DNA from: Stentor roeselii
Taxonomy: Eukaryota; Ciliophora; Heterotrichea; Heterotrichida; Stentoridae
Assembly: GCA_006503475.1 (NCBI GenBank)
Contig: RSEH01000042.1
Location: 62,001-126,000, forward strand
Direction: 5' to 3'
DNA: 64,000 nucleotides
Both the position numbers and the translations under genes were made by a program. Shown here one piece after another: positions 61 to 63,572 of this stretch (its first letter is position 1; every line of letters starts with the position of its first letter). A model generated the notes under the pieces. It was given only the letters and a program-made list of their open reading frames with translations, did no database searches and had not been told where the DNA came from.

Positions 61-2640
61 TTAATAATTATCTCTCGATTTTGTTGTGTTGAATAAAGTT
101 GCTTCCATCAGCAGCTTTTCGTATTCTTCTTTTTTTTTCATCGTTTTTTGACGCTCGAGGAACAGTTCTGTTGAGGTCGAGTTTAATTTTTCTTTAAGTT
201 CTCTGATTTCTTCGTCTTTTATTGATGACTGTGAATGGGAAAGGGGTCTCTGGCATATCGATTCTTCGGACTTTTCGATTTTTTCTGGCTTTAAAAGGTT
301 TTTTTCGAGATTTTTAAGTTTTTTTTGGAGTTTCTTGTTTTCGGCTTCAAGAGATTCGGTTTTGTTCGAGTTTAAGTAAATGAAAAGTTCGGATTTGTAG
401 GTTTCTGCGGTTTTTTTAACGTTTTCGTAGTTTTCTGAGAGGTTTTCGATTAGTTCGGATTGGTTTAGGATTCTTTTGTTTAGGGCTTGCTCTTGAGTTT
501 CGTATTTTTGGAGAATTTTTGATAGTTTTAAGACTTTTTCATCGTGTTCTTCGATTTTTTGGATTAATTTTTCGTCTTTTCTTTTTCTGAGTTCTTCGAT
601 TTCTTTGGATTTTTCGTGGAGATTTTGAAGGGTTTTTTCAAGAGCTTCTTTTAGCATGTTTTTTTCGTTTTCTTGTTGTGAGACTTGAGATTTATATGAA
701 AAAATTGCTCTTTCATTTAATTTTAATGAATTTTCAAGAGTTTCTATCATTTTTTCAGTTTCTGAAAGTCGGTTGATTAGTAGCTCGATTGAATTTTTTT
801 GTATTTTTTTGGAGTTTTTTAGGTTTTCTATGATTTTTAATAATTTTTGAAAGTATGCAATTTTAAGGTTTATTGATTCATTGATGCTTTCGAAGGTGTT
901 TTTGATTTCAGAATCGAAATCTAAGCAATTTTTTCTGAATTTACCTAGAAATTCCCCTATAAATTGCTTCAAATTAAAATTTCCACAATTAAAATCATCA
1001 TTTTTTTCATTAATCTTGGACCAGTTGTCCTTTTCAAAAAGTAATAAATTAATTTCCTGCTCCTTAGTATCAAGACAATTTTCATAATTTTTCAGTAGTT
1101 GTTTCAAGTTAACTTTTTCATTTTCACACAAAGCTAGTTTTTTATTAGTAATCCCAAGCATCTGATTAACTTCTCTAAAACTTTTAAACAAATTTTCAAG
1201 TTCCAGATCTCTTTTATAAGGTTTAGGTAAAAAAATGCATTGAAATTGAATTTCCTGAACAAGTTCTTTTTTTTTACTTGGAAAAACTCTGCTTGTTTCA
1301 GATTCAAACAAAGAAGTCTGAGTTTCTCTTGAATAAAACACTTTTTTTTCATTAAAAGATTTAAAAATAATTTCTTTTTCATGACATTCTTTTTCTTTTT
1401 CCTTTAATTGCTTTCTTAGAGCTCTTATCAAGTTTTCATTGTGATAAGTGACTTGAAGGTTAAAAGAGCTTTCCTTGCAGAGAGTCAATTTCTTGTTTCC
1501 TTTGAAAAAACCATCTGAAGTTGATATTTCAGAAGCAGTTCTCAAACTACTTCTGAGAGTTTTTATTTCATTTCTGAGATCTTCTTTTTCTTTTTCAAGG
1601 GAATTCACATTTCTTTTGAAATTTAAAACAATTCCATGCAACATCTTTATTTCGTTTGCTTGTGCATGAGGATTTAAAGTTTCAATTGACCCTGACACAC
1701 TTTTTAGATTTTGAACTGGGATTTCCTCGTTTTTGAAGCGAGGAGTAACGATTTCGTCGATGATTTTTTCTATTTCTTCAGTCTGGAACTGAAAGTTTTC
1801 CATAATCATTCCGAAGTCATCTTGTTTTACTTTTGTATTCTTCAAACCAGCTGCTTGCTCTGAAAGTTCTTTAACAAGTTTTTCAATAAAAGCAAGTTTC
1901 TCATAAATTGTCTTATGAAACAAATGATTCGAAGGTGAATTCACTTCAATTTGAATTGGTTTCGATAATTTTTGATCATCTTTCGAAAAAATTGAAAGAC
2001 TTTCAGTAGATTTAATTTTCTGCATAGATAAATTTTGCATCATTTGGATTTTTTCAAGCTGATTCAGTACTTTTTTTACCATTGTTTCTTTGTCTTGAAT
2101 AATTTTTTCTTGTTCTTTGATCTTTTTTTTTAGACTTTTTATTATTTTTTCTTTTTGTGATCCTTGAACAGTTTCTTTTTCATTTCTTTCTAGTTTAGAA
2201 TGTGATCTTTTCAATAATTTTTCAGATGTTTCCTGAGAATTGTCACAGAGATGACTGACGAACAAGTTTAATTCACAAAAGATTGTTTCCAGTTTTGAAA
2301 GTTTGTGATTTTCAGGATAGGGTGTTTTTATCAGTAGCTCAATCTCAGTTTTGAAAGAGTCCAAAGAAAAATTATGAACATTTTGGTTTAAGTCCTGCAA
2401 ATGACACGATGCAAGTTTCAAGCTTTTCCCTAAATTTTCCCCATGAATATTAACAAGATTCAAAACCTCTCTAGGTGTACTAGGGTCATTTTTGAGTTCA
2501 CTCTGCATAATCTCAGTGTGAAACCGAATCATCTCAAGACAATACCTAACAAACCCATTATACTGACTTTCAAGTGCCGAAACCCTAAGTTTCAAGTATC
2601 TGTTAGTCTCACTCTCTTGATTTACACGATTTTCCAGCAT
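61..2640 (-). CDS. Large coiled-coil protein
   Basis: An 859-residue protein rich in Lys, Glu, Leu, Asn and Ser. Long heptad-like coiled-coil stretches lie at about residues 150-200, 330-420 and 620-850. I see no catalytic motif, signal peptide or membrane segment. Length and composition fit a structural cytoskeletal, basal-body or cortical protein, but this is inference from composition only. The ATG at 2638-2640 is chosen because it begins the frame and lies only 26 nt from the divergent start of the TPR gene. It ends with TAA at 61-63. Confidence 0.85.
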   Translation of the reverse strand: MLENRVNQESETNRYLKLRVSALESQYNGFVRYCLEMIRFHTEIMQSELKNDPSTPREVLNLVNIHGENLGKSLKLASCHLQDLNQNVHNFSLDSFKTEIELLIKTPYPENHKLSKLETIFCELNLFVSHLCDNSQETSEKLLKRSHSKLERNEKETVQGSQKEKIIKSLKKKIKEQEKIIQDKETMVKKVLNQLEKIQMMQNLSMQKIKSTESLSIFSKDDQKLSKPIQIEVNSPSNHLFHKTIYEKLAFIEKLVKELSEQAAGLKNTKVKQDDFGMIMENFQFQTEEIEKIIDEIVTPRFKNEEIPVQNLKSVSGSIETLNPHAQANEIKMLHGIVLNFKRNVNSLEKEKEDLRNEIKTLRSSLRTASEISTSDGFFKGNKKLTLCKESSFNLQVTYHNENLIRALRKQLKEKEKECHEKEIIFKSFNEKKVFYSRETQTSLFESETSRVFPSKKKELVQEIQFQCIFLPKPYKRDLELENLFKSFREVNQMLGITNKKLALCENEKVNLKQLLKNYENCLDTKEQEINLLLFEKDNWSKINEKNDDFNCGNFNLKQFIGEFLGKFRKNCLDFDSEIKNTFESINESINLKIAYFQKLLKIIENLKNSKKIQKNSIELLINRLSETEKMIETLENSLKLNERAIFSYKSQVSQQENEKNMLKEALEKTLQNLHEKSKEIEELRKRKDEKLIQKIEEHDEKVLKLSKILQKYETQEQALNKRILNQSELIENLSENYENVKKTAETYKSELFIYLNSNKTESLEAENKKLQKKLKNLEKNLLKPEKIEKSEESICQRPLSHSQSSIKDEEIRELKEKLNSTSTELFLERQKTMKKKEEYEKLLMEATLFNTTKSRDNY

Positions 2641-17021: not shown

Positions 17022-17993
17022 TTAAATTCTTCCTCTCGAACTCTGATAAAAATCCATTTCTAAATTGGATGAATGTTCAACAATTCCTAATTTCTTATCA
17101 ATTTCATTACTTTGTGCACTATCAGGCTCAATTCTATAAACTTCATAGAATATAAGCCTAATCTCCGAATGATATCCATAAACAAGACTATTGAAAAATC
17201 CTAGTAACCTCATCAAACAACTAGAAAAAATAGAAAATCCAAAAAATCCACAATTTTTCATTTGACCCAAACTAAAACACCGACTAATGGTGAGTGGAAT
17301 AAAACATAATACAAGAATAATCGGAATATAAATCATTGTTTTATATTTTTCAATATCTGCATTATTTCTTTTATTTGCAATCCAAATTTTACCAGAGACA
17401 TATAAAATGAAGCATATTATGATCCATGCAATAATATAAAAAAAACCTAACCAATAAAACCTTTTCAAATGATTTAAGTCACTATCTTCATTTTCAATGA
17501 TATTGAACCAACACCAACAAGTCGACTCTTTATAACCAACATTAGCAAGAGGAACAGTTGAAGTAATAACTCCTAATATGCAAGTAATAAATAAAGGCAA
17601 TTTTTCATCCATTTTACCTTTTTTCAATATAATTTCTCGATAACTTACATAATTTATAAACCCTGTCCAGATAATTCCTGATAAACTAAAGAATTGAATT
17701 AAGATGCCTTGGATTGTACAAAATGGATCATATTTAGCTTCGCTGTCTAAGTTAAATGTACAGTTTGAATCAATATAATTATCTTTTAGTTCTTCTGAGG
17801 TTGGTAAAACTGGAAGCAGGGAACTTAGACTGAGACCGCCGTAGAAAATCAACAGGATTATCACAAGTCTTGTTTCGTAGTTGTTAAAGAGTCGTTTTTT
17901 ATAGAGAAGGCTGAGAATTATCAAAAAACTGCATGAAATTGAACTTAGCAAAGAAAAAGGGATTTGGGTGTAGTAGCCTATTGATGATGACAT
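17022..17993 (-). CDS. Seven-TM receptor, cAMP-receptor (Dicty_CAR) type
   Basis: A 323-residue protein with seven hydrophobic spans. The extracellular Cys pair typical of class E receptors is visible (CTIQGILIQFF before TM3 and STCWCWF in loop 2), and IPLTISRC lies in TM6. The final span is followed by a short cytosolic tail (from YGYHSEIR). It probably signals through a G protein; the ligand is unknown. The start at 17991-17993 (MSSSIGYY) is preferred because TCTATA abuts it and the frame further upstream begins at a non-ATG codon. It lies head-to-tail with a close paralogue 45 nt upstream. Confidence 0.9.
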   Translation of the reverse strand: MSSSIGYYTQIPFSLLSSISCSFLIILSLLYKKRLFNNYETRLVIILLIFYGGLSLSSLLPVLPTSEELKDNYIDSNCTFNLDSEAKYDPFCTIQGILIQFFSLSGIIWTGFINYVSYREIILKKGKMDEKLPLFITCILGVITSTVPLANVGYKESTCWCWFNIIENEDSDLNHLKRFYWLGFFYIIAWIIICFILYVSGKIWIANKRNNADIEKYKTMIYIPIILVLCFIPLTISRCFSLGQMKNCGFFGFSIFSSCLMRLLGFFNSLVYGYHSEIRLIFYEVYRIEPDSAQSNEIDKKLGIVEHSSNLEMDFYQSSRGRI

Positions 17994-18038
17994 TATAGAC
18001 AAATTATATTTTTTATATCTAATCCTAGGTAATTAACT

Positions 18039-18983
18039 CTAATCATGAGATGGCTGGCATTCAAGAATCTCTAAGTCGTTATTAGACTCAACATGAATAT
18101 AACGTATTTTATAAGTTTCTGCGAAGATTGTCCTGATTTCTGAATGATACCCATAAACTAAACTATTCAGAAACCCTAGACTTCTCATAAGGCAGGATGA
18201 AAATATGCTAAATCCCAATAATTCACAATTAGATGTTCCAGTGAGAGCAATACATCTACTAATTGTTAATGGAATAAAGCAAAAGCACAAAATTATCGGA
18301 ATAAAAATAGTTTTTTCGAACTTTTTAATATCAACGCCATTATTTTTATAAACAATAAAGATTCTGATTAGAGCATATACTATGAAAATGATTATCGCCC
18401 AAGCAATCGCATAAAAGAATCCAACCCAGTAAAACCTTTTCAAATGATCCATATCATTGGAAGACTTGCTGATATTAAACCAGCACCAACAAGTCGACTC
18501 TTGATACCCGACATGAGCAAGAGGCACAGCAGAAGTGATTAATCCAAAGACAACAACAATGATCAAAGGAATATTTTCGTTCAATTTATTATTTCTTTTT
18601 AATATAATTTCACGATAATTCACATAGTTAATGAAACCAGTCCAGATAATCCCTGATAAGCTGAAGAATTGAATAAGAAATCCTTGAAAATTGCATAAAA
18701 AGTCATTGTTGTCTTCCATCTCATTTTGTGCAACGACTGTGCAATTGGAACTAATGAATTTATTCCTGTTTGTTGAGTATTCGAACACTGGAAGAAGAGA
18801 ACTGAGACAAAGACCGTCGTAGAAAATTAAAAGAATTATCACGAGTCTTGTTTCGTAATTATCCCAGAGTTTTTGTTTGAAAAGTAAGGATAGACAGATG
18901 AGGAAGGTGCAGGATATAGCGCTGAGACTTGAAAACGGAGCTTGATAAGGATATCCGATTATTGGGTTATCTCCATAAACCAT
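18039..18983 (-). CDS. Seven-TM receptor, cAMP-receptor (Dicty_CAR) type, paralogue 2
   Basis: A 314-residue close relative of the neighbouring receptor. It has the same seven spans, ETRLVIILLIFYDGL in TM2, the Cys pair CNFQGFLIQFF / STCWCWF, IPLTISRC in TM6, and LVYGYHSEIR at the start of the tail. The N-terminal loops and the tail diverge most, which fits paralogues specialising in ligand or partner. Only 45 nt separate its stop from the ATG of the downstream receptor, indicating tandem duplication. Confidence 0.9.
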   Translation of the reverse strand: MVYGDNPIIGYPYQAPFSSLSAISCTFLICLSLLFKQKLWDNYETRLVIILLIFYDGLCLSSLLPVFEYSTNRNKFISSNCTVVAQNEMEDNNDFLCNFQGFLIQFFSLSGIIWTGFINYVNYREIILKRNNKLNENIPLIIVVVFGLITSAVPLAHVGYQESTCWCWFNISKSSNDMDHLKRFYWVGFFYAIAWAIIIFIVYALIRIFIVYKNNGVDIKKFEKTIFIPIILCFCFIPLTISRCIALTGTSNCELLGFSIFSSCLMRSLGFLNSLVYGYHSEIRTIFAETYKIRYIHVESNNDLEILECQPSHD

Positions 18984-22820: not shown

Positions 22821-23972
22821 ATGGATGGACTGATTTTAAGGTCAAGTGGTTCGTACTACGGAAACACCTTTCTTTTAGGAATTTTTATCTATGTCAGTGA
22901 AACATACCATACATTTTACTGGATGCTATGGTTCATGTTTGTTGCTATTCCAGTGATTGACTATCTTCTTCCTCCTAGTCTTTCAAACCCTACCCCAGAA
23001 GAAGAAACCCTTCTCAAGGTCCAAAATCGTTTCTTAGTTCCTATCTACCTCTTCATCTTCATGGCCTGGGCGACCTTAATCTGGGGATTCGGTTATTTGT
23101 ATAGAACAGAGATGACAAATTTCGAATTCCTTACTTTCACTTTGATATTTGGGAATATCGGCATCATCAGCATGGAACATAGCCATGAGTTAATCCATAA
23201 GAAATCGAAAATCGGAAGGTTTATTGGACAAGTCGACTTCGTAAAAAATCTCTACATGCACATTTATTCTGAGCATGTCAAGGGTCATCATCGATGGGTT
23301 TGCACACCTCTTGATAAAGGGACTTCAACTTATGGGCAAAGCTTTTATGATTTTTTCCCGAAATCTTTTTTTAATTCTTACACTTGTACATGGGATCGAG
23401 AGGTACTAAGACTTCAAAAAGAAGGCCGGTCTAAATTCAGTCTATACAATAAAATGATCACTTGGACTTTATGCGAAATCCTATTCACTTACTCAGTTTA
23501 CCACTTCTATGATTCACGAGTCCTTCTATTTTTTGTGTCGCAAGCATTTGTGTCAATAACAATTCTCGAGATATTCAACTATTTCACTCATTATGGACTT
23601 ACCCGGAAAAAGCTACCAAATGGAGAATACGAGCCAGTCCAGCCTAAACATTCCTGGAGTGCACATCAACTTATTCAAAATGTGATTCAGCTAGGTGTGC
23701 AAAGGCATCCTGATCATCATGCAAATGCACATCGGCCTTACCAAATACTCAGAGCCTCTACTGATGGACCTGCTTATCCTTGTGGGTACTTGACTTGCAC
23801 ACTTATTGCACTTTTACCTCCAGTTTGGTTTAAAATGACTCACCCGATAATTGAAGGCTTCAATAAGGATGGAAAGGCGAATGATCAGCAGAAAAATACA
23901 AGCAAGAATGTGTTCTTAATGTGGATGGTAGTTCAAGCTACTTTTACAAGCATCGCACCATTCTTATTTTAG
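22821..23972 (+). CDS. Membrane di-iron alkane 1-monooxygenase-like hydroxylase (AlkB type)
   Basis: A 383-residue integral membrane protein of the fatty acid desaturase/hydroxylase superfamily. All AlkB histidine boxes are intact: HELIHK (122-127), EHVKGHH (151-157), NYFTHYGL (253-260) and QRHPDHH (294-300). It has several hydrophobic spans and no rubredoxin or cytochrome b5 domain, so a separate electron donor is needed. Known family members hydroxylate the terminal carbon of alkanes or related lipids at a di-iron site; the substrate here is unknown. It is one of three intact paralogues in the window. Confidence 0.93.
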   Translation: MDGLILRSSGSYYGNTFLLGIFIYVSETYHTFYWMLWFMFVAIPVIDYLLPPSLSNPTPEEETLLKVQNRFLVPIYLFIFMAWATLIWGFGYLYRTEMTNFEFLTFTLIFGNIGIISMEHSHELIHKKSKIGRFIGQVDFVKNLYMHIYSEHVKGHHRWVCTPLDKGTSTYGQSFYDFFPKSFFNSYTCTWDREVLRLQKEGRSKFSLYNKMITWTLCEILFTYSVYHFYDSRVLLFFVSQAFVSITILEIFNYFTHYGLTRKKLPNGEYEPVQPKHSWSAHQLIQNVIQLGVQRHPDHHANAHRPYQILRASTDGPAYPCGYLTCTLIALLPPVWFKMTHPIIEGFNKDGKANDQQKNTSKNVFLMWMVVQATFTSIAPFLF

Positions 23973-24845: not shown

Positions 24846-25691
24846 TCATCTAGAATTCACTGTAGAACTAATTCCAATCATCTCATATTCAACAGTTCCA
24901 ATATGATAAGCCTCAAATAAAGTTTCTTTAATATTTGAATTATAACTGTAAACAACACAGTTCAAAAACCCAAGACTTCTCATAAGGCAAGCTGAAAATA
25001 TTTGATAATTTTTCAATTCAATACTAGTACAAAATTGTAAAACTCGACAAATTGTCAGAGGCAAGAAGCAAACCAACAAAATAATAGGAATAAAAATTAT
25101 TTGTTTGTATTTACTGAAGTCCGCATTAGATCTTTGATAAACCCAAAAAATCCTGATAAAAGCATAAGCGATGAAAAAAATGATGATCCAAGATATAGCA
25201 TAAAAAAATCCAAATATATGAATTGATTTCCAGATAGTTTCTTCAGTTGAATGAGTTTCATGTAAATCGAACCAACACCAGCAGGTCGATTCTTTATATT
25301 TTATTGTTACTAAAGCAACTGTTGAGGTTAGTATTGAAATGCAAAGAATAATTAAGATTGGACATGTTAAAGGTAATGATCGTTCTTTCTTTTGAATAAC
25401 TCCTCGATAGTTTACTAGATTTATAAATCCTGTCCACAAGATTCCTGATAAACTAAAAAACTGAATCAAAAATCCTTGTGCGGTGCATGATTCGTCAATC
25501 CATACAGGAAATAAGGATGCTAAACAAAGTCCATCATAGAAAGAGAGCAGGATTATCACAAGTTTCGTTTCAAACTGAGCCAGCATTTTTTTTTTGAACA
25601 AGATACTCAGTGAAATGACAAAAGTACAAGTGAGTGCACTTATACCTGAAAATATTGCTTGGTATTGGTAAGCTTCTATCAAAATTTCCAT
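24846..25691 (-). CDS. Seven-TM receptor, cAMP-receptor (Dicty_CAR) type, paralogue 3
   Basis: A 281-residue receptor related to the pair at 17-19 kb but more diverged and shorter in its extracellular loop 1. It keeps the Cys pair (CTAQGFLIQFF and STCWCWF), FETKLVIILLSFYDGL in TM2, IPLTICR in TM6 and SYNSNIKE opening the tail. It lies between two AlkB genes and is divergent from the one at 26780. G-protein coupling is inferred from the family. Confidence 0.88.
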   Translation of the reverse strand: MEILIEAYQYQAIFSGISALTCTFVISLSILFKKKMLAQFETKLVIILLSFYDGLCLASLFPVWIDESCTAQGFLIQFFSLSGILWTGFINLVNYRGVIQKKERSLPLTCPILIILCISILTSTVALVTIKYKESTCWCWFDLHETHSTEETIWKSIHIFGFFYAISWIIIFFIAYAFIRIFWVYQRSNADFSKYKQIIFIPIILLVCFLPLTICRVLQFCTSIELKNYQIFSACLMRSLGFLNCVVYSYNSNIKETLFEAYHIGTVEYEMIGISSTVNSR

Positions 25692-26779: not shown

Positions 26780-27931
26780 ATGGATGGAAAAATCTTGAGA
26801 TCGAGCAGCTCCTATTATGGGAACGTCTTATTGTTAGCAGCTTTCATATATATAGCTGAAACAAGTCATACATTCTATTGGGTGTTATGGGTTATGTATG
26901 TGGTTGTTCCAATAGTAGACCACCTCCTTCCTCCAAGTCTATCAAACCCAACCCCAGAAGAAGAAAAACTCCTAATAAACCAAACCCGTTTTCTCGTTCC
27001 AATCTACCTTTTTCTATTCACATCCTGGGTGACATTTTTCTGGTCACTAGACTTTCTATACCGAACCGAGATGTCAACATTCGAGTTCCTAACATTTAGT
27101 TTAATTCTGGGTAACATCGGAATCATCTGTTTCGAATACGATCACGAGTTATACCACAAGAAAAGTAAAATAGGAAGATTCATAGGAACCTTAGACATGT
27201 TAAAGTCTCTTTACATGCACCTTTACTCGGAGCACGTGAAAGGTCACCACAAATGGGTAGGAACCCCATTAGACAAAGGGACCGGTCGATTAGGTCAAAG
27301 TTTTTACGATTTCTTCCCAAAATCCTTCATATCTTCCTACACCTGCACATGGGAACGAGAAGTATCAAGACTAAAAAAAGAAAACAGGTCAAAATTCAGT
27401 CCCTATAACCGAATGTTCCTTTGGGTGTCAATGGAAGTTCTATTCACTTACTGGGTTTTTCATAACTATGGACCTCGAGTCCTGTTGTTTTTTTTCATTC
27501 AAGCTTTTGTGACTATCACGATTTTAGAAGAGTTCAACTATTTCACTCATTATGGACTTGTGAGGAATAAACTTTCAAATGGAGAATACGAGCCTGTCAA
27601 GCCGAAGCACTCTTGGAGTGCTCATCAGTTGCTTGAGAATATCATTCAACTTGGACTTCAGAGACACCCTGATCATCATGCGAACGGGTATAGACCTTAT
27701 CAGATTTTAAGAGCGGTCACTGACGGGCCCACTTTGCCTTGTGGGTACTTTCCTTGTGTTGTTATTAGTTTAGTTCCTCCGGTTTGGTTTCGAATGACGC
27801 ATCCTATCTTGGAAGGGATTGGAAAAGATGGAAAAGCTAGTGATCAGCAAATTGCTCTGAGTCGGAATGTCTTTTTGGCTTGGATGGCTTTTCAGGCTGC
27901 TTTTGCTAGTGCTGCTCCGTATTTGTTTTAG
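26780..27931 (+). CDS. AlkB-type membrane di-iron hydroxylase, paralogue 2
   Basis: A 383-residue protein, exactly the length of the copy at 22821. Histidine boxes are HELYHK (122-127), EHVKGHH (151-157), NYFTHYGL (253-260) and QRHPDHH (294-300), all present. Tyr replaces Ile inside the first box, outside the His ligands. Its coding sequence is more C-rich at third positions than the 22821 copy. The nearby pseudogene resembles this copy in its middle part. The same caveats apply about electron donor and substrate. Confidence 0.93.
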   Translation: MDGKILRSSSSYYGNVLLLAAFIYIAETSHTFYWVLWVMYVVVPIVDHLLPPSLSNPTPEEEKLLINQTRFLVPIYLFLFTSWVTFFWSLDFLYRTEMSTFEFLTFSLILGNIGIICFEYDHELYHKKSKIGRFIGTLDMLKSLYMHLYSEHVKGHHKWVGTPLDKGTGRLGQSFYDFFPKSFISSYTCTWEREVSRLKKENRSKFSPYNRMFLWVSMEVLFTYWVFHNYGPRVLLFFFIQAFVTITILEEFNYFTHYGLVRNKLSNGEYEPVKPKHSWSAHQLLENIIQLGLQRHPDHHANGYRPYQILRAVTDGPTLPCGYFPCVVISLVPPVWFRMTHPILEGIGKDGKASDQQIALSRNVFLAWMAFQAAFASAAPYLF

Positions 27932-38446: not shown

Positions 38447-39598
38447 CTAAAATAAGAATGGTGCAATACTTGTGAAACCAGCCTGAATTACCATCCAGAT
38501 TAAAAATACGCTCTTGCTTTGATTTTTCTGCTGATCATTAGGTTTTCCATCCTTATTTATGCCTTCAATTATTGGGTGTGTGATTCTGAACCAAACTGGA
38601 GGGAAGAGACTAACAATAATGCATGTCAAGTACCCACAAGGGAGGGTAGGGCCATCGTCAAATGCTCTGAGTATTTGGTAAGGTCGATGTCCAAATGAAT
38701 GATGATCGGGATGTCTTTGCACACCCAACTCAATCACGTTTTGAATCAACTGATGTGCACTCCAAGAATGATTAGGCTTGACTGGCTCGTATTCTCCATT
38801 TTCTAGCTTTTTTCGGGTAAGTCCGTAATGAGTGAAATAGTTAAACTCTTCAAGGGATACGATTGTCACTGCTGCTTGAAGGACAAAGAATAAAAGAACC
38901 CGTGCTCCATAGAAGTGGTAAATTGTGTAAGTGAAAAGAATTTCACATAAAGCCCAGATGAACATTTTATTGTAGGGACTGTATTTAGACCGTCCTAATT
39001 TTTGAAGTCTTTGAACTTCTCTTTTCCAAGTGCAAGTGTAAGACCCAAGGAAAGATTGTGGGAAAAATTCGTAGAAAGTTTGCCCATATTTTCCAGTCCC
39101 TTTGTCAAGAGGTGTACTAACCCATCGATGATGGCCCTTTACGTGCTCTGAATAAATATGCATGTACAGAGTCTTGACAAGGTCGATTCCGACAATGAAC
39201 CTTGCGATTTTCTCTTTCTTATGAGTTAATTCATGGCCATGCAACACGCTGAGGACACCGATCATGCCAAATGTATAAGTGAAACTAATGAATTCGAAAT
39301 AGGTCATCTCTGTTCTGTACAAGTAGCCCAGTCCCCAGAAAAAGGTCACCCAGGATAAAAAGAGGAAGAGGTAGATGGGAATGTGGAAACGCTTTTGGTT
39401 TTTTATGGTTTTTTCTTCTTCTGGGGTTGGATTTGAAAGACTAGGAGGCAGAAAGTAGTCAATCACTGGGATAGCAGCAAACAAAACCCATAGCATCCAG
39501 TAGAATGTATGGTATGTTTCACAAACATAGACGAATAAACACAAGAGAAATGAAGTTCCGTAGTAAGAGCAGCTCGACCTTAAAATTAAACCATCCAT
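38447..39598 (-). CDS. AlkB-type membrane di-iron hydroxylase, paralogue 3
   Basis: A 383-residue protein, the same length as the copies at 22821 and 26780, on the other strand about 11 kb away. Histidine boxes are intact: HELTHK (122-127), EHVKGHH (151-157), NYFTHYGL (253-260) and QRHPDHH (294-300). It is closer to the 22821 copy in sequence (for example WMLW and ITHPIIEGINKDGK). Immediately upstream lies a tandem array of decayed copies of its own 5' end. Substrate and electron donor are unknown. Confidence 0.93.
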   Translation of the reverse strand: MDGLILRSSCSYYGTSFLLCLFVYVCETYHTFYWMLWVLFAAIPVIDYFLPPSLSNPTPEEEKTIKNQKRFHIPIYLFLFLSWVTFFWGLGYLYRTEMTYFEFISFTYTFGMIGVLSVLHGHELTHKKEKIARFIVGIDLVKTLYMHIYSEHVKGHHRWVSTPLDKGTGKYGQTFYEFFPQSFLGSYTCTWKREVQRLQKLGRSKYSPYNKMFIWALCEILFTYTIYHFYGARVLLFFVLQAAVTIVSLEEFNYFTHYGLTRKKLENGEYEPVKPNHSWSAHQLIQNVIELGVQRHPDHHSFGHRPYQILRAFDDGPTLPCGYLTCIIVSLFPPVWFRITHPIIEGINKDGKPNDQQKNQSKSVFLIWMVIQAGFTSIAPFLF

Positions 39599-57708: not shown

Positions 57709-58571
57709 TTATTAATAGTTAATCAAGTTATATTAATGAAGTATTTAGATAGTTGATATTTATAAATATTGATTCTTTGATGTTATGGATTTATATAAGA
57801 TTCTCGAGCTCAACAATAAGATTCAATGATTTCTTGCATGAAATTTTGAAGGAATATCTATATAAATAAGAAATATATTCTTCACTGTCAAGCTCATTCA
57901 AATACTAATCTAACCATTAATCTTTATTGAAATTTAGTTATTTTATAGCATGAATATAATCTAAAGGTTCTATTAAATGCATATTAAATTAAAATACCAA
58001 AAGAAAACACATACTTATTAATATTCATTAAATTTATTCATTTCCTTTTTTGGCTATCATAAGGAGTTTTAAATCACCTCGAGTGAATCACAGAGGCATA
58101 TTATATAAACTCCAAAAAAATTGAATTAAGCTTATGTATTCAAAATAAAATTCTCAAAGAAAGACTAATGAAGCTTAATAAATAATACTCCAAAACAGTT
58201 CCGTATAATTTAATAAATCTTCAAATAAAACAGTAAAATCTATAATCTGATCACTTCAGTCGAAACGCATAAAAAACCTTAAATAAGCAAGAATTTCACA
58301 TCCCTAAAAATTTTCACAAAAACTTAAAAATCAATTGAAACCAGGCAACTAAAACAAAAATATAAATTAATCTCATCAACACTCTTCAAAAAATCTGCAT
58401 CTCATCATCCTTAAAAAAAATTATCTTCCAAGAATCCCAATCTTTGTTTCAACACCAATCAAAAAAACCCTAAAATCTATAACTTCACCTATTTCACTAA
58501 ACCTTTCTGAACCTATCACTGCTCTTTAAATCCACTTCAAATTAAACCAAATCCTCACCTGATCTATAATA
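57709..58571. other. Intergenic, nothing recognised
   Basis: About 860 AT-rich bases between two plus-strand genes. No ORF or RNA gene was seen; the last ~250 bases are rich in AAA/ACC runs as before many genes here. Confidence 0.55.
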
Positions 58572-59387
58572 ATGGACTGGGACTTCTATTCAAGTCTAAT
58601 CGAAGAAGACGTATTTTCCTCTTTTCTAAACGCAAACGAGCCTCTGTAACCTCTAATCAGAATCTTAGAGCCTTTAAAGCAAGAGTCAAATACCGACCAA
58701 GGCCAAGTCCAGAACCAGAACCGTTTAGCAAAAAACCGAGAATCCGCCAGAAATACACGAAAAAAGAAAAAAGAGCAGCTTGAGCTGCTTGAGAAGCGTG
58801 TTGCCGAGTTAACAGAAGAAGTCGAAACTTTAAGACAAGAAGCTTCAGCTCAGTTCCCTCAAGGTGAAGTGTCCTTGAAATACAAAAGTGACAAACAGAT
58901 ACTTTTTGATAAACTAGAGACTTTGCTTCAAGGGGAAGGGTCTGAAAAAGAGTTTTTGGATATCATCGAAACTTTAAGAACGAAGTTAGGAGCGAATGGA
59001 GTTGAAAGGCAAGGGTACATCGAGTATCTTATTCATCAGATCTCTGATGTTTCTCTACCTAATCAAGTTAAAGGACTGCTAAATACAGAACAAATCAAAA
59101 AGACTTACTTTTGGGATGAACTTCTGGACTTCAATCATGGACATGCAGATCAACAACCTAAAATGGAAGAGTTTCTTACCATCGTTGTTAAAAAAGCTGA
59201 AGAATTTAAAAATACCATGAAAAAACTCAAGAGAATTAAAAAGTGCTTGTTGAGAAGAACTGGACATTTACAGAATTTAATTGATTATATTTCGTCAAGA
59301 CTTACTTTTAGGCAGATTGCAGCTTTATTGGTTAGATTGAGTAAAGAAAGAGATGAACTTGATCCTTGGAGAGATAATTCAATTTAA
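58572..59387 (+). CDS. bZIP transcription factor with a 15-nt intron
   Basis: Exons 58572-58645 and 58661-59387 join into a 266-residue protein. An acidic N-terminus (MDWDFYSSLIEEDVFSSF) precedes the bZIP domain at about 45-85. The basic region NRLAKNRESARNTRKKKK has the invariant Asn and Arg spaced as in bZIP factors (N-x7-R), followed by leucine heptads EQLELLEKRVAELTEEVETL. The remaining ~170 residues are helical and unassigned. Without removing the intron the bZIP domain would be lost from the predicted protein. CTATAATAATG marks the start. Confidence 0.92.
58646..58660 (+). other. 15-nt spliceosomal intron of the bZIP gene
   Basis: GTAACCTCTAATCAG. It splits a Leu codon in phase 2, and removal opens the frame through the basic region. 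Candidate branch A at position 10. Confidence 0.92.
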
Positions 59388-59398
59388 GTAATAAACTA

Positions 59399-60286
59399 TT
59401 AAGAATCTGAAAACTGTTGAGCACCGTATTTTTCTTGTAGTTTTTTCTGACTTTTACTAGTTTTTTTCGACTTTTCTTCCTTGTGCAAGTTAAACAAAAT
59501 AGCAGCATGAGAAGGTGTAGCAAAAGAATGAACATCATTTCCTTTTTCCCCTAATTTCTCAACAAATTTCTCCTGTTCAATTAACTTAGCCATATCTTTA
59601 TCAACCTTGATCCAACTATCCCTATAAAGTTGATCAGCAGAGCCAAGTTCAACAGGAACATCTTTAAAAGACCTGGACTTTCCATCATAATTATTGACTT
59701 CAGGGTCAATATTTGCAATGTAACAAACAGGGTCATCCCTAGAGCGATTATTAAAAGTGACAGTCTTAGTTCTCGGGTCAACATTATTAACAAGTACATT
59801 AAACCTATACTCTTCATTTTCTTCTCCGTCACTTAAGTCAACATCTTTTCCATCATAAAACTTTTGATGAAGTAATTCAATTTTTTGCTTTTTCTTTGCA
59901 GCTTCTAACTTCTGATACTCATCCATTACTTCAGAATAAGCCTGGGGTTCATATCCACTCCATCTGTCGTGTTTTTCATCATAATTTTGAACCTTCTTCG
60001 TGATTTGCTCGTCGTAAGGAATTATCTGGCCTGAGTACTTTGCACCTATTTTACGAGGACGCTCGCAGCAGTCTTTTGACTTGTGAGATAAAGAACCGCA
60101 GTTGGTGCAGGCACCTTCTCGGAATTTTTGGGTGTTGTGGTAAACTCGAGATGATTTTTTTAGGTCGCTTGGTAGAGAGGCCTTGGATGATGACTTACGT
60201 GGTAAGGAATCACCTGATGCGGTTTTTGAGTACCATGGAGTTTGGGATAAGAAGGATGGAACGTGCTTTGATTCTTCTTCTTCCAT
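59399..60286 (-). CDS. SLU7: Pre-mRNA splicing factor SLU7
   Basis: A 295-residue protein with SLU7 hallmarks: the N-terminal phrase PSFLSQTPWY, a zinc knuckle CTNCGSLSHKSKDC (about 59-72), DRWSGYEP and the C-terminal KKLQEKYGA. SLU7 acts in the second step of splicing and influences 3' splice-site choice, especially where branch point and 3' site are far apart. It is shorter than animal SLU7 (about 580 residues). Its stop is only 11 nt from the convergent bZIP gene's stop. Confidence 0.93.
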   Translation of the reverse strand: MEEEESKHVPSFLSQTPWYSKTASGDSLPRKSSSKASLPSDLKKSSRVYHNTQKFREGACTNCGSLSHKSKDCCERPRKIGAKYSGQIIPYDEQITKKVQNYDEKHDRWSGYEPQAYSEVMDEYQKLEAAKKKQKIELLHQKFYDGKDVDLSDGEENEEYRFNVLVNNVDPRTKTVTFNNRSRDDPVCYIANIDPEVNNYDGKSRSFKDVPVELGSADQLYRDSWIKVDKDMAKLIEQEKFVEKLGEKGNDVHSFATPSHAAILFNLHKEEKSKKTSKSQKKLQEKYGAQQFSDS

Positions 60287-60459
60287 TTTTTGTTTAGATT
60301 GGTATGGATTTAGTTTTTATTTGAAGGAGATTTTTTTTTGTGATGGATTTAGGAGATGTAGGAATATTGATCATTTTAAATTCTCTAATAATCATTAGCA
60401 TTCATAAACCTTAAATTGATTAAAAACTCTAAAACTAAATCAAACATTTTTAAAGCATT

Positions 60460-60497
60460 CTCCAGTTTTCCATAAATTTAAAGAAAACCTTCACTTG
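60460..60497 (-). promoter_or_regulatory. SECIS-like element of GPx 1
   Basis: Starts ten bases after the stop codon. Core read on the minus strand: CAAGTGA, a helix GGTTTTC paired with GAAAACT, a 12-base apical loop with AA 11 bases after the GTGA, then GGAG giving the second GA of the sheared tandem. The flanks match those of the second copy at 61208-61260. Confidence 0.72.
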
Positions 60498-60506
60498 TCT
60501 GTAAAC

Positions 60507-61010
60507 TTAAAAGTACTTAATATATTTTTCACAAATATCAAGCGGCAAGTAATTCGGAGGGTAATACTCAACAATACTCGCATCTCGATTAACAACAAAC
60601 TTGCCAAAGTTCCATCCAACTTTCCCTCCACTCAAGTTACTTTTCGCTCTTAAAAACTTGTAAAGTTCACAAGCTTCATCTCCATTCACATCAACTTTAT
60701 CGAAGACTGGGAATTCAACTCCAAGACTTTTGACGTATTTCAAGATTTCTTGATTAGTGCCTGGCTCTCGCTTGTTGAACTGGTTGCATGGAAAGGCCAA
60801 GATCTGCAGGCCTTTAGAAGCGAAATGAGTGTTTATTTGGACTAGTTGCTTGTAATTTGAGGTTGAAATGGCTCACTCTGAAGCCACGTTGACGATCAGA
60901 AGGACTTTACCTCGGTATTCTTCTAAATTTTTGGTTCCTTCAATTGACTCGACAGTAATTTCGTATAATGAAGAGTAAGGGGAGACGCACTTGGACCCAA
61001 AACAGCCCAT
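60507..61010 (-). CDS. Selenocysteine glutathione peroxidase 1 (in-frame UGA)
   Basis: A 167-residue phospholipid-hydroperoxide-type GPx if UGA at codon 46 (60873-60875) is read as selenocysteine. The context NVASE-U-AISTSNYKQL aligns with the catalytic NVAS(x)U motif, and the frame stays open on both sides. Further features: ILAFPCNQF, WNF (Trp133, Asn134) and no dimerisation loop, as in GPx4. The catalytic Gln expected at position 81 is Arg (NKREPG), which is odd. N-terminus MGCFGSK suits N-myristoylation. It would reduce lipid hydroperoxides with glutathione or thioredoxin. A SECIS-like hairpin lies downstream. UGA ends other genes here, so reassignment to Trp is unlikely. Confidence 0.88.
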
Positions 61011-61207
61011 TAATATTTTTTATTTGATGAAGAAATGATTAGCAGATGTTATCTAAACACTAATGATAATAAAAATATTGATGTTATCAAAGATTTAATA
61101 ATCTTTTGAATAAATTAGATAATAAACCAAATGTTACTCAAATGGATTAGCAGATGTTATCTAAAACCTAAACAAACTCTCGTAATACCAATTAAAACTA
61201 TCCTAAT

Positions 61208-61260
61208 AATTAAACTCCAGTTTCCTTCTAACTTTTCCAGAAACTATCACTTGTTTAACT
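61208..61260 (-). promoter_or_regulatory. SECIS-like element of GPx 2
   Basis: On the minus strand: AGTTAAAC pairs with GTTTAATT (8 bp, one G-U) as the lower helix; then AA, GTGA, upper helix AGTTTC/GAAACT (6 bp perfect), an apical loop with AAAA 10-11 bases after GTGA, and GGA opposite GTGA. This is the standard type I SECIS layout. The sequence CAAGTGA...GAAACTGGAG is shared with GPx 1 although the loops differ. Confidence 0.82.
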
Positions 61261-61262
61261 TT

Positions 61263-61766
61263 TTACAAAAACTTCTCAATTTCATTTACCAGCTTCTTCG
61301 GAGGCTTATTCGGTACAAAATATTCAATTTTCTCTCCATCCCGACTAACAATAAACTTTCCAAAGTTCCATCCGATTTGATTCCCTTTCAAGTTGCTACG
61401 AAGTCTTAAAAACTTGTACAAGTCACAAGCATTTTTTCCATTCACATCAATTTTCTTGAAAACTCTGAAATTTGCTTGTTTTGACCTGACAAACTGAAGA
61501 ATTTCTTCATCAGTTCCTGGCTCTTGATTCAAAAACTGGTTGCAAGGAAAAGCCAGGATTTCGACTCCTTCAAGTTTGTAGTCTTTTTCGATTTTGACAA
61601 GTTCTGAGTAGTATTGTTCGGTCAGGTCTCATTTGGAGGCAACGTTGACTATCATCAGGACTTTTCCGCGGTATTCTTGAAGAGTTGTTGGCCCTGAAAG
61701 GGTTTGCACTGGGATCTCGTAGAGACTTTTAAATGGATTGGCGCAGCTGGATTTACCACCGCCCAT
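61263..61766 (-). CDS. Selenocysteine glutathione peroxidase 2 (in-frame UGA)
   Basis: A 167-residue paralogue of the gene 250 bases downstream, with UGA at codon 46 (61629-61631) inside NVASK-U-DLTEQYYSEL. Identical length and UGA position mark them as tandem duplicates. Here the catalytic Gln81 is kept (LNQEPG), with Trp133/Asn134 in GWNFGKF. N-terminus MGGGKSSC suits N-myristoylation at Gly2. Expected to be a membrane-associated lipid-hydroperoxide peroxidase. A hairpin with SECIS features begins two bases after the stop. Without recoding, only a C-terminal piece would be called as a gene. Confidence 0.88.
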
Positions 61767-61941
61767 GGATTTTTATCTTATTTAGGATTTTAGATTTGTT
61801 TAATGTTCCTAAAGCCCCAAAGGTTAATGTGTTATTGAATAATGGCTGATTTAAGTATTTTTTATTTTAAGAGGTTTATTTTAAATTTATATTTTATTTA
61901 GATGAATGATTGGGTAATCTTTGAATATATTATCCTCCTCA

Positions 61942-62730
61942 ATGTCATCATTAAGCGAAAAAAAGCAAAAACAAATCGCAATCCACACCTTACTTAACGG
62001 TGCCAAAAGTGCCTCAGAGTCTTTCGCAATACCAGAATCCGAAGCATCTTCACAGCTAAAAGTCCTTCTCAAAGATGAATCAACCCTATTCCGAGTGATC
62101 CGAGAAGAAATCCTTTCCTCAATCCAGCACAAAGGGTTACCCGCCAGTTCCGAGATCTGGGGAATAGACGAGAATCTCCTAATCCTTCTATCCTCCTCCT
62201 ATTCTCTTCCAGATTCCTTCCGCGAGGTAAAAGAAGCAGGTGTGAACATAACCCCAAACGAGTTAAAATCGACCTCGACAGTCTCAGTCCAACCACAAGG
62301 TCCAAACGACTCATCAACTCCAAAAAGAAAGAAAAAGTCTTCAGAAGACAAGCGAAAAGTCACAAGTTATTCAATCGAGCAAAAAATCGATGCCGTGAAA
62401 GAATTCGTGAAAAGGACAAACCAAAGCGAAACAGCTCGAGAACTGAACATTCCAGCAGTGAACCTAATGAGATGGCGAGATAAAATCAGAAAAGAAGCCT
62501 TTCAAGACGCGCATGTGGAAAACTTGTATGAATCTGCGAGAAGAGGACAGCGAAACAAAATGTTTAAAGAACTCGACATGAGGGTTTTTCAGTTGTATAA
62601 AGAAAACACAGATAAAAGTGATGCGAAAATCGTGGGAATCGCTAAGGAACTTGTAAGGATTGATGAAAATGAACCGGCTGTTAAAGAACTATGGCTTACT
62701 AGCTTTAAGAGACACTTTAAGCTTATTTAG
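61942..62730 (+). CDS. HTH DNA-binding protein, probably transposase-derived
   Basis: A 262-residue protein. The N-terminal half is Ser-rich and unassigned. A basic stretch (PKRKKKSSEDKRK, about 127-140) precedes a helix-turn-helix of Psq/CENP-B/Brinker type: TSYSIEQKIDAVKEFVKRTN and SETARELNIPAVNLMRWRDK (about 142-185). A helical C-terminal part follows with no DDE catalytic core. It looks like the DNA-binding half of a pogo-like transposase used as a host protein. The start at 61942 (MSSLSEKK) is the first good ATG. Confidence 0.8.
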   Translation: MSSLSEKKQKQIAIHTLLNGAKSASESFAIPESEASSQLKVLLKDESTLFRVIREEILSSIQHKGLPASSEIWGIDENLLILLSSSYSLPDSFREVKEAGVNITPNELKSTSTVSVQPQGPNDSSTPKRKKKSSEDKRKVTSYSIEQKIDAVKEFVKRTNQSETARELNIPAVNLMRWRDKIRKEAFQDAHVENLYESARRGQRNKMFKELDMRVFQLYKENTDKSDAKIVGIAKELVRIDENEPAVKELWLTSFKRHFKLI

Positions 62731-62733
62731 GTA

Positions 62734-63219
62734 TTAATGGTTGATTGAAACTTGTTTTAACGGCTTTGGTTTTGATGAACGGTGAGTTGTTGCTTGTGAT
62801 TCGAAAAATTTTAAGTCTTTTACACTTTTTGACTTGAGTTTTATGACCGGTCTTTTCATTTTTTTCGACTTTTTCTTAGGATCGTCGAGACTTGACTTCT
62901 TTGCCCGGACTCGACTTGTGCTTGGCTGGTGGAAGAAGAGGCTTAGAAGAGAGGATTTTAAAGACCTGGTCTTTTCGGCGTTACACATTTTTTGGAGTTT
63001 TAGACGGTTTGAGATGCTTTCCATTGTTTCTAGCAACTTGAATTCAAGGCTTGGATCACGACGGTCTGTTGGTGACTGAGGAATGGGACTTAATTGGGTG
63101 CTTTCTGTGTCTAATGTTGTTCCATGAAGGAGGATTTCGTCTGTTTTGTGGATTTTGAAGTCTTGGTAAGACGCTAATGCTGTTCTACGAGAGTGCTTCT
63201 TGAATTGGTCTTCGTTCAT
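62734..63219 (-). CDS. Basic hypothetical protein
   Basis: A 161-residue Lys/Ser/Arg-rich protein beginning MNEDQFKKHSRRTAL. No domain is recognised; a highly basic patch KKKSKKMKRPVIKLKSKS lies at about 115-132. It ends three bases from the stop of the converging HTH gene. Composition is coding-like. Confidence 0.7.
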   Translation of the reverse strand: MNEDQFKKHSRRTALASYQDFKIHKTDEILLHGTTLDTESTQLSPIPQSPTDRRDPSLEFKLLETMESISNRLKLQKMCNAEKTRSLKSSLLSLFFHQPSTSRVRAKKSSLDDPKKKSKKMKRPVIKLKSKSVKDLKFFESQATTHRSSKPKPLKQVSINH

Positions 63220-63572
63220 TTTATATGAACTGATGGAATTAATCATTGAATTAATGATTAGATGAAGTTTGTCAAAGAATTTATAAATGAAGAATTATTT
63301 GTTTATTAATCGTTTTGATTTAGATTGAATTGGAATCAGTGAAATTTCGATTTATTTTAAATTTTTTGGAAGAATGAATCAGTGAAATTCGATTTTTTTT
63401 AGATTTTTTGGAATAAAAGTTCAGTGAAATTATTTTTTTTCAAGGAAGAGACTCTTTGATAACTTTTCAATTTTATAAACTGTTTGATAATAGAGAATAT
63501 AAATAAAACTTTCTATTGAATCAGCAAATGAATATTTAAAAAACTCCAAATTTTCACCGAATTTACAATTAT
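63220..63572. other. Intergenic, nothing recognised
   Basis: About 350 AT-rich bases; imperfect direct repeats of CAGTGAAATTTCGATTT near 63339 and 63381. Confidence 0.5.

Follow-up and report, generated by a model that had tools for sequence, protein, structure and literature searches.

Two tandem genes for glutathione peroxidase (GPx) were found on the reverse strand of the window, that is, the whole stretch of 64,000 nucleotides of the Stentor roeselii genome analysed here (contig RSEH01000042.1, positions 62,001 to 126,000), and each is followed by a hairpin of the SECIS type (Table 1). The frame of copy 1 holds a single in-frame TGA, at codon 46, and copy 2 adjoins copy 1 upstream in the same orientation. 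An earlier note on this DNA had proposed that reading the UGA at codon 46 as selenocysteine (Sec) gives a full-length GPx, and our results bear this out: the product has 167 residues, one TGA and a TAA end, and with Cys in place of U46 it matched the Pfam family GSHPx (PF00255, E 1.8e-34), solved GPX4 chains (E about 1e-36), and also solved structures of GPx from plants and schistosomes. The catalytic motif had been placed at this same codon, and there it lies, for U46 of copy 1 aligns with the Cys of the solved homologues and the TGA shares one alignment column in all eight intact GPx copies of the genome. The gene had moreover been called unmarked; if this meant that it lacks a recoding signal, the word was wrong, since the SECIS-type hairpin begins a few bases past the stop codon. 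Neither the second copy nor the hairpins behind both genes appeared in that note.

Table 1. Features of the window and of other contigs discussed in the text (window positions count from the first nucleotide of the window; C-numbers name contigs and L-numbers loci).
Feature	Location	Strand	Details
GPx copy 1, putative Sec-GPx (GPX4 type), coding sequence	60507..61010	-	167 aa with Sec, ATG to TAA
Copy 1, UGA codon 46	60873..60875	-	predicted catalytic Sec (NVASE-U)
Copy 1, SECIS-type hairpin	60453..60504	-	core GUGA to GAG within 60460-60497
GPx copy 2, putative tandem Sec-GPx, coding sequence	61263..61766	-	167 aa with Sec, TAA stop
Copy 2, UGA codon 46	61629..61631	-	predicted catalytic Sec (NVASK-U)
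Copy 2, SECIS-type hairpin	61208..61260	-	core within 61215-61253
383-aa paralogues with His-rich motifs	22821-23972; 26780-27931; 38447-39598	+; +; -	
Three related membrane proteins	17022-18983 and 24846-25691	-	
Ninth GPx copy (C60b)	C60:59325-59594		frameshifted
tRNA-Sec	C186:125248-125332		64 bits (cut-off 47), anticodon tca (UCA)
SepSecS	C76		E 3.9e-115
SPS2	C377		E 7.3e-64, one TGA, in KYKGUG
eEFSec	C441		eukaryotic third and fourth domains present
SBP2-like protein	C49		L7Ae domain 26.4 bits; best PDB match SECISBP2 7zjw, E 3e-22
Candidate PUB-domain selenoprotein	C11:35500-38600 (L074)	+	ORF from about 1868; hairpin 2457-2508 (+); pattern match at C11:37966-38000
C3 hairpin, probably a chance match	L073 671-725	-	

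Elsewhere in the window lie three 383-residue paralogues, which we take to resemble membrane di-iron hydroxylases (AlkB/desaturase type), and three related membrane proteins, which we presume to be seven-helix-like. Judged by eye, the intergenic gaps are short.

The genome searched comprised 44,391,514 bases in 522 contigs. PF00255 matched above its cut-off at nine places genome-wide, and every one of these domains contains one TGA, each time at the catalytic codon. Tandem pairs hold eight of the nine copies (on C310, C9, C15 and C60). The ninth copy, C60b, carries a frameshift that its partner in the tandem pair lacks, and retains both the UGA and the hairpin; the frameshift may reflect a young pseudogene or an assembly error. 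Catalytic residues are well kept in the family: the tetrad of the window copies lies in CNQF and WNFGKF motifs, all eight intact copies have Gln77 and Asn134, and Trp133 is found in six of the eight, with Leu in both C15 copies.

Conservation past the UGA bears directly on the possibility that UGA46 is a stop, so that the genes would be decayed pseudogenes or would encode a 45-residue peptide. UGA does serve as a stop, if rarely (13 of 96 ORFs, see below), and one of the nine copies is frameshifted, both of which would fit such decay. Against this, about 120 residues behind the UGA are kept in the eight intact copies at a mean identity of 50%, and pN/pS over this part averages 0.46 (range 0.20-0.62; 28 pairs, C60b being left out for its frameshift), compared with 0.55 before the TGA. 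By this measure, the part of GPx behind the UGA is under purifying selection. The UGA falls at the catalytic codon in nine of nine copies and a covarying hairpin follows each GPx gene, which also count against termination at this codon; we regard it as very unlikely.

Ciliates often reassign UGA, and the available text of PMC4967479 gives UGA in Blepharisma as predicted to encode Trp. UGA might thus be a sense codon for Trp or Cys here, as in some ciliates, and residue 46 an ordinary amino acid. The earlier note had argued against UGA as a general sense codon on the ground that other genes in the window end with it, and this view stood up in a broader survey. Among 24 window ORFs, stops were TAA in 11, TAG in 10 and TGA in 3; these were drawn from 33 window ORFs of at least 200 aa, from which eight with a TTG start and one with an ATG start were left out. 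In a wider set of 96 ATG-start ORFs of at least 200 aa (the window plus loci L002-L073, minus a few overlapping loci), TAA ended 46, TAG 37 and TGA 13. These ORFs are mechanical and cut at stops, so they reveal TGA stops but say nothing on whether TGA is missing from the inside of genes, and searches with protein families are therefore the telling control. No in-frame TGA occurred in the 26 domain matches of five other families, the best candidates being scored (PF10262 nine, PF01248 nine, PF02852 four, PF01625 three and PF21131 one; the PF02852 match of TrxR stops short of the Sec of TrxR itself). The SepSecS match contained TAG only, and a weak PSTK match was free of TGA as well. In-frame TGA was seen only at Sec positions, namely in GPx, in SPS2 (KYKGUG) and in TrxR (TGCUG end). 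In addition, the sole above-cut-off match in the search with the tRNA-Sec family, the one tRNA family that this comparison covers, carries the anticodon tca. All these findings run counter to a general sense codon, which appears exceedingly improbable. The Rdx, MsrA and Pyr_redox_dim matches were also considered as further selenoproteins and were rejected, for there is no TGA inside their domains.

The genome encodes most of the machinery for Sec decoding. A genome search for tRNA-Sec, EFsec and SBP2 had been suggested in the earlier note, with the absence of a Sec tRNA and of EFsec as grounds for giving up the Sec reading; tRNA-Sec (tca), eEFSec and an SBP2-like protein were all found, so the genome content leaves that reading standing. 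Four weaker matches of the tRNA-Sec search were tRNA-Ser and tRNA-Leu. SepSecS and SPS2 are present as well. For PSTK, a single weak match reached 25.9 bits, far below the curated cut-off of 382, and is a doubtful candidate for this kinase. The in-frame TAG of SepSecS falls inside a GT..AG stretch of 15 nt, a possible mini-intron. Such a tiny intron, the short intergenic gaps and a GPx family of the Sec type throughout, as in Stentor coeruleus, would fit a heterotrich ciliate.

A hairpin of about 52 nt follows each of the nine GPx genes, with GTGA, AA and GAG invariant. Across 11 of 11 hairpins, TGA, GAG and the AA of the apical loop are invariant and the core is one of tandem G.A pairs; the 5' core reads GUGA in all 11 and the 3' core NGAG. 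The usual 5' core of SECIS elements is AUGA. The letters found here thus depart from the canonical AUGA on the 5' side and KGAW on the 3' side (the latter as given in the available text of PMC7409322), so we file the hairpin as a SECIS variant. The same source describes eukaryotic SECIS elements, in its available part, as having a UGAN/KGAW core and an A-triplet in the loop, with a length of 59-82 nt in ciliates. The S. roeselii hairpins share with them the position past the stop codon, the tandem G.A core, the A-rich apical loop and the two helices, but differ in the GUGA/NGAG letters, in their length of about 52 nt, and in the place of the core, which in SPS2 and the intact GPx genes comes 13-14 nt past the stop codon.

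Covariation supported the named structure. In the nine GPx hairpins, 81.2% of cells pair, and both partners change in 12 of the 13 pairs named, a count reached by 3 of 500 shuffles; the covariation score was 0.756 against 0.298 for shuffled alignments (0 of 500), and slid controls scored at most 0.205. With the hairpins of SPS2 and TrxR added, no pair is left in which both partners do not change (13 of 13; 1 of 500), and the score rises to 0.845. The hairpins are paralogous and hence not independent, which inflates the shuffle control, so finds made out of sample weigh more. Folded alone, the nine hairpins gave z values from +0.19 to -3.43, the two in the window -0.63 and -1.87; the best solo fold of the C15b hairpin differs from the SECIS-type fold, and three of the five pairs in helix I of copy 1 are non-standard. 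Rfam searches, run without a positive control, reported no SECIS at window positions 58500-63500 (E up to 5) or in the seven loci with the nine GPx hairpins and SPS2 (E up to 2).

Covariance models were then judged on hairpins outside their training sets, with E-values that are rough owing to a short calibration (models R1-R3). Model R3 was built without both window hairpins, from nine rows (six GPx, SPS2, TrxR and the PUB gene described below; the C9b hairpin was dropped from its alignment, A5/R3, because MAFFT had placed the row one column off). It found the hairpin of copy 2 at 39.2 bits and that of copy 1 at 34.8 bits; the next match in the window scored 13.7 bits, and the best elsewhere, over 63 other loci with 202,405 bases, 18.3 bits. 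Model R1, for which the nine GPx hairpins were the sole training set, found a hairpin behind the unrelated TrxR (C365), which ends in GCUG, with 35.4 bits and an E-value of 2.6e-7 in 46.6 kb (about 2.5e-4 when scaled to the genome). It found the SPS2 hairpin weakly, with 20.8 bits and an E-value of 0.0099 in 119 kb; this match alone is not significant genome-wide (E about 4) and is outscored by a false positive on C3 (23.0 bits under R1). The C3 hairpin has no selenoprotein-like ORF upstream, fell to 14.2 bits under R3, and is probably a chance match.

TrxR and SPS2 belong to families whose UGA encodes Sec elsewhere. The like hairpins behind TrxR (GCUG) and SPS2, together with the Sec pathway encoded in the genome, argue against a further possibility, in which the hairpin would aid near-cognate read-through of UGA46 and Trp, Cys or Arg would be placed there in lieu of Sec. 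Near-cognate tRNAs are known to read through stop codons in a programmed manner (PMC13170385, in its available part), and the identity of the residue as Sec rests on inference from sequence, but we judge such read-through to be just as improbable as a general sense codon. Least probable of all is that the TGA lies in a tiny spliced-out intron of 15-16 nt, as the TAG of SepSecS within its GT..AG stretch may do and as a 16-nt GT..AG stretch seen by eye over the TGA of copy 1 might suggest, because in eight copies the NVAS-U flanks align without gaps, and they also align with the catalytic position of solved GPx, the loss of 16 nt shifts the frame, and any such intron removes the catalytic residue.

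We thus favour, with a probability of about 0.93, the reading that both window genes encode true GPX4-type selenoproteins with a minimal SECIS hairpin directly behind the UAA. The hairpins would lie within the 3' ends of the mRNAs, so that each mRNA would end in this minimal element. The SBP2-like L7Ae protein would bind its kink-turn core, in which 5' GUGAN faces 3' NGAG with tandem sheared G.A pairs, and would bring eEFSec with Sec-tRNA(UCA); UGA46 would then be decoded as Sec and translation would continue to the UAA. Binding of the hairpin by the SBP2-like protein and hairpin-driven Sec insertion at UGA46 are predictions from gene content and sequence, and so is the peroxidase activity of the enzyme, whose site would comprise Sec46, Gln77, Trp133 and Asn134.

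The protein itself is close to GPX4. An AlphaFold2 model on the eight-copy alignment reached a pLDDT of 81.1 and a pTM of 0.81, and Foldseek placed a designed GPX4 at the top, followed by human GPX4 (7u4n, TM 0.88, 39% identity); GPX1 ranked lower, with inserts, and needed 181-182 alignment columns. GPX4-type chains align over the full length, whereas GPX1, 2, 3, 5 and 6 align only to residue 122-123. By these comparisons, the window GPx is of the monomeric GPX4 type, without the oligomerisation insert. Oligomerisation of GPX1-type enzymes is due to this insert. With human GPX4 it shares the fold, the predicted Sec46, Gln-Trp-Asn and the lack of a GPX1-type insert, but it differs in overall identity, in the mostly Met-Gly start with Cys, and in the mRNA signal at the stop codon. 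Seven of the nine GPx copies, which are paralogues, start with Met-Gly, have a Cys close by and carry Ser, Thr or Cys as residue 6, whereas Gly follows the first residue in 10 of 117 ORFs with at least 150 aa; the start codons are our choice, and C15b has in-frame ATGs farther upstream. We assume that Met-Gly with Ser/Thr/Cys at position 6 is an N-myristoylation motif. More speculatively, many GPx copies may be N-myristoylated and palmitoylated and act at membranes.

The spacing of the elements is tight. The core UGA lies 13 nt past the TAA in both window copies, and this distance from the stop codon holds in seven of the eight intact GPx genes and in SPS2; it is 14 nt in C15a, 36 nt in TrxR, and 40 nt from the shifted stop in the frameshifted C60b. 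Since the letters of the spacer differ, either its length is apparently under constraint or the 3' UTR can shrink no further. From the Sec codon to the core, the distance is 379 nt in GPx (380 nt in C15a), 1000 nt in SPS2 and 42 nt in TrxR. The value for TrxR falls below the reported minimum of 51 nt between UGA and SECIS core that is quoted in the available text of PMC3737529, where counting may differ. Like the TrxR of Euplotes crassus described in that same text, TrxR of S. roeselii has a predicted C-terminal Sec and a 3' hairpin of the SECIS type, but the stop-to-core distance in Euplotes is 124-138 nt, against 36 nt here, again with a count that may differ. Heterotrich 3' UTRs have a median length of 21-23 nt (PMC4967479, available part), so a SECIS would make up most of such a selenoprotein 3' UTR. 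The SECIS element would accordingly be squeezed into the short 3' UTRs of heterotrichs.

Pattern screens of the genome gave one candidate for a further selenoprotein. A loose pattern of the core was of no use by itself, since it matched at 706 places and its reversed control at 788. A tighter pattern matched at 129 places, and its reversed form, which differs in composition, at 59. The tighter-pattern places listed reach C347, and TrxR on C365 is not among them. When hairpins were scored among the matches listed (one duplicate taken out), one unknown, on C11, ranked with the known elements; a further three had weaker folds than every known element that folded, and one of these three, on C112, lies in a reading frame and was rejected. 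The scoring has low sensitivity: the true C15a hairpin escaped it, and C15b is not among the best of the loose-pattern places listed. A place on C17, from the loose-pattern scoring, was discarded, for it has no convincing selenoprotein ORF.

The C11 hairpin scored 30.6 bits under R1 (E 4.4e-6 in 33.3 kb, about 0.006 when scaled to the genome), the pattern having preselected its core and loop and neither helix. The protein in front of it carries a PUB domain (PF09409, E 6.9e-20), with UBX domain-containing protein 6 and PNGase as the nearest solved chains. Its gene ends in KKG-UGA-CGA-UAA, and the core lies 33 nt past the UGA, as counted by eye. We put forward this PUB protein, which would end in KKG-U-R, as a candidate selenoprotein, the plain alternative being that the UGA is an ordinary stop codon. 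In the 3' stretches of both genes with a putative C-terminal Sec, TrxR and C11 (n=2), a 5-bp hairpin stands directly behind the UAA, starting 6 nt after the UGA, and the SECIS-shaped hairpin follows. The position of this extra hairpin recalls, as we presume, Sec redefinition elements. If true, C11 would represent a selenoprotein of a new kind, one that carries a domain of the p97-adaptor type. Taken as a whole, the idea that Sec decoding has shrunk to suit almost absent 3' UTRs, with a SECIS of about 52 nt at the stop codon, UGA-to-core distances of 42 and 33 nt, both short of the reported minimum of 51 nt, an extra hairpin in the two genes with C-terminal Sec, and a new PUB selenoprotein, has in our estimate an even chance of being right.

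Multicopy GPx of the Sec type has been reported from Stentor coeruleus, in which, in the available text of PMC7409322, seven GPx (SteGPx1-7) are all of the Sec type; the S. roeselii family is alike, as compared by description. In the same text, SteGPx3 and SteGPx6 have CXU and have lost Trp, and so have both C15 copies here, but SteGPx3 and SteGPx6 are listed without Gln, which the C15 copies keep. SECISearch3 found no SECIS for the S. coeruleus GPx, nor was a tRNA-Sec found, according to that part of PMC7409322, whereas both a SECIS-type hairpin and a tRNA-Sec were found here. Sec-GPx is therefore already known, and what is new is a compact SECIS placed at the stop codon. In the open-licence PMC literature, mostly titles and the starts of abstracts, this form of SECIS was not found described, and within the same scope no acylated Sec-GPx and no PUB selenoprotein came up; no paper on apicomplexan SECIS was found in open-licence PMC. 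The anatomy of the hairpin may answer the puzzle of the missing SECIS in S. coeruleus, if it is shared there. The hairpin departs in a definable way from the consensus that has been searched for and so provides a testable model for overlooked selenoproteins of heterotrichs. It also raises the question of how little 3' UTR Sec insertion in eukaryotes needs.
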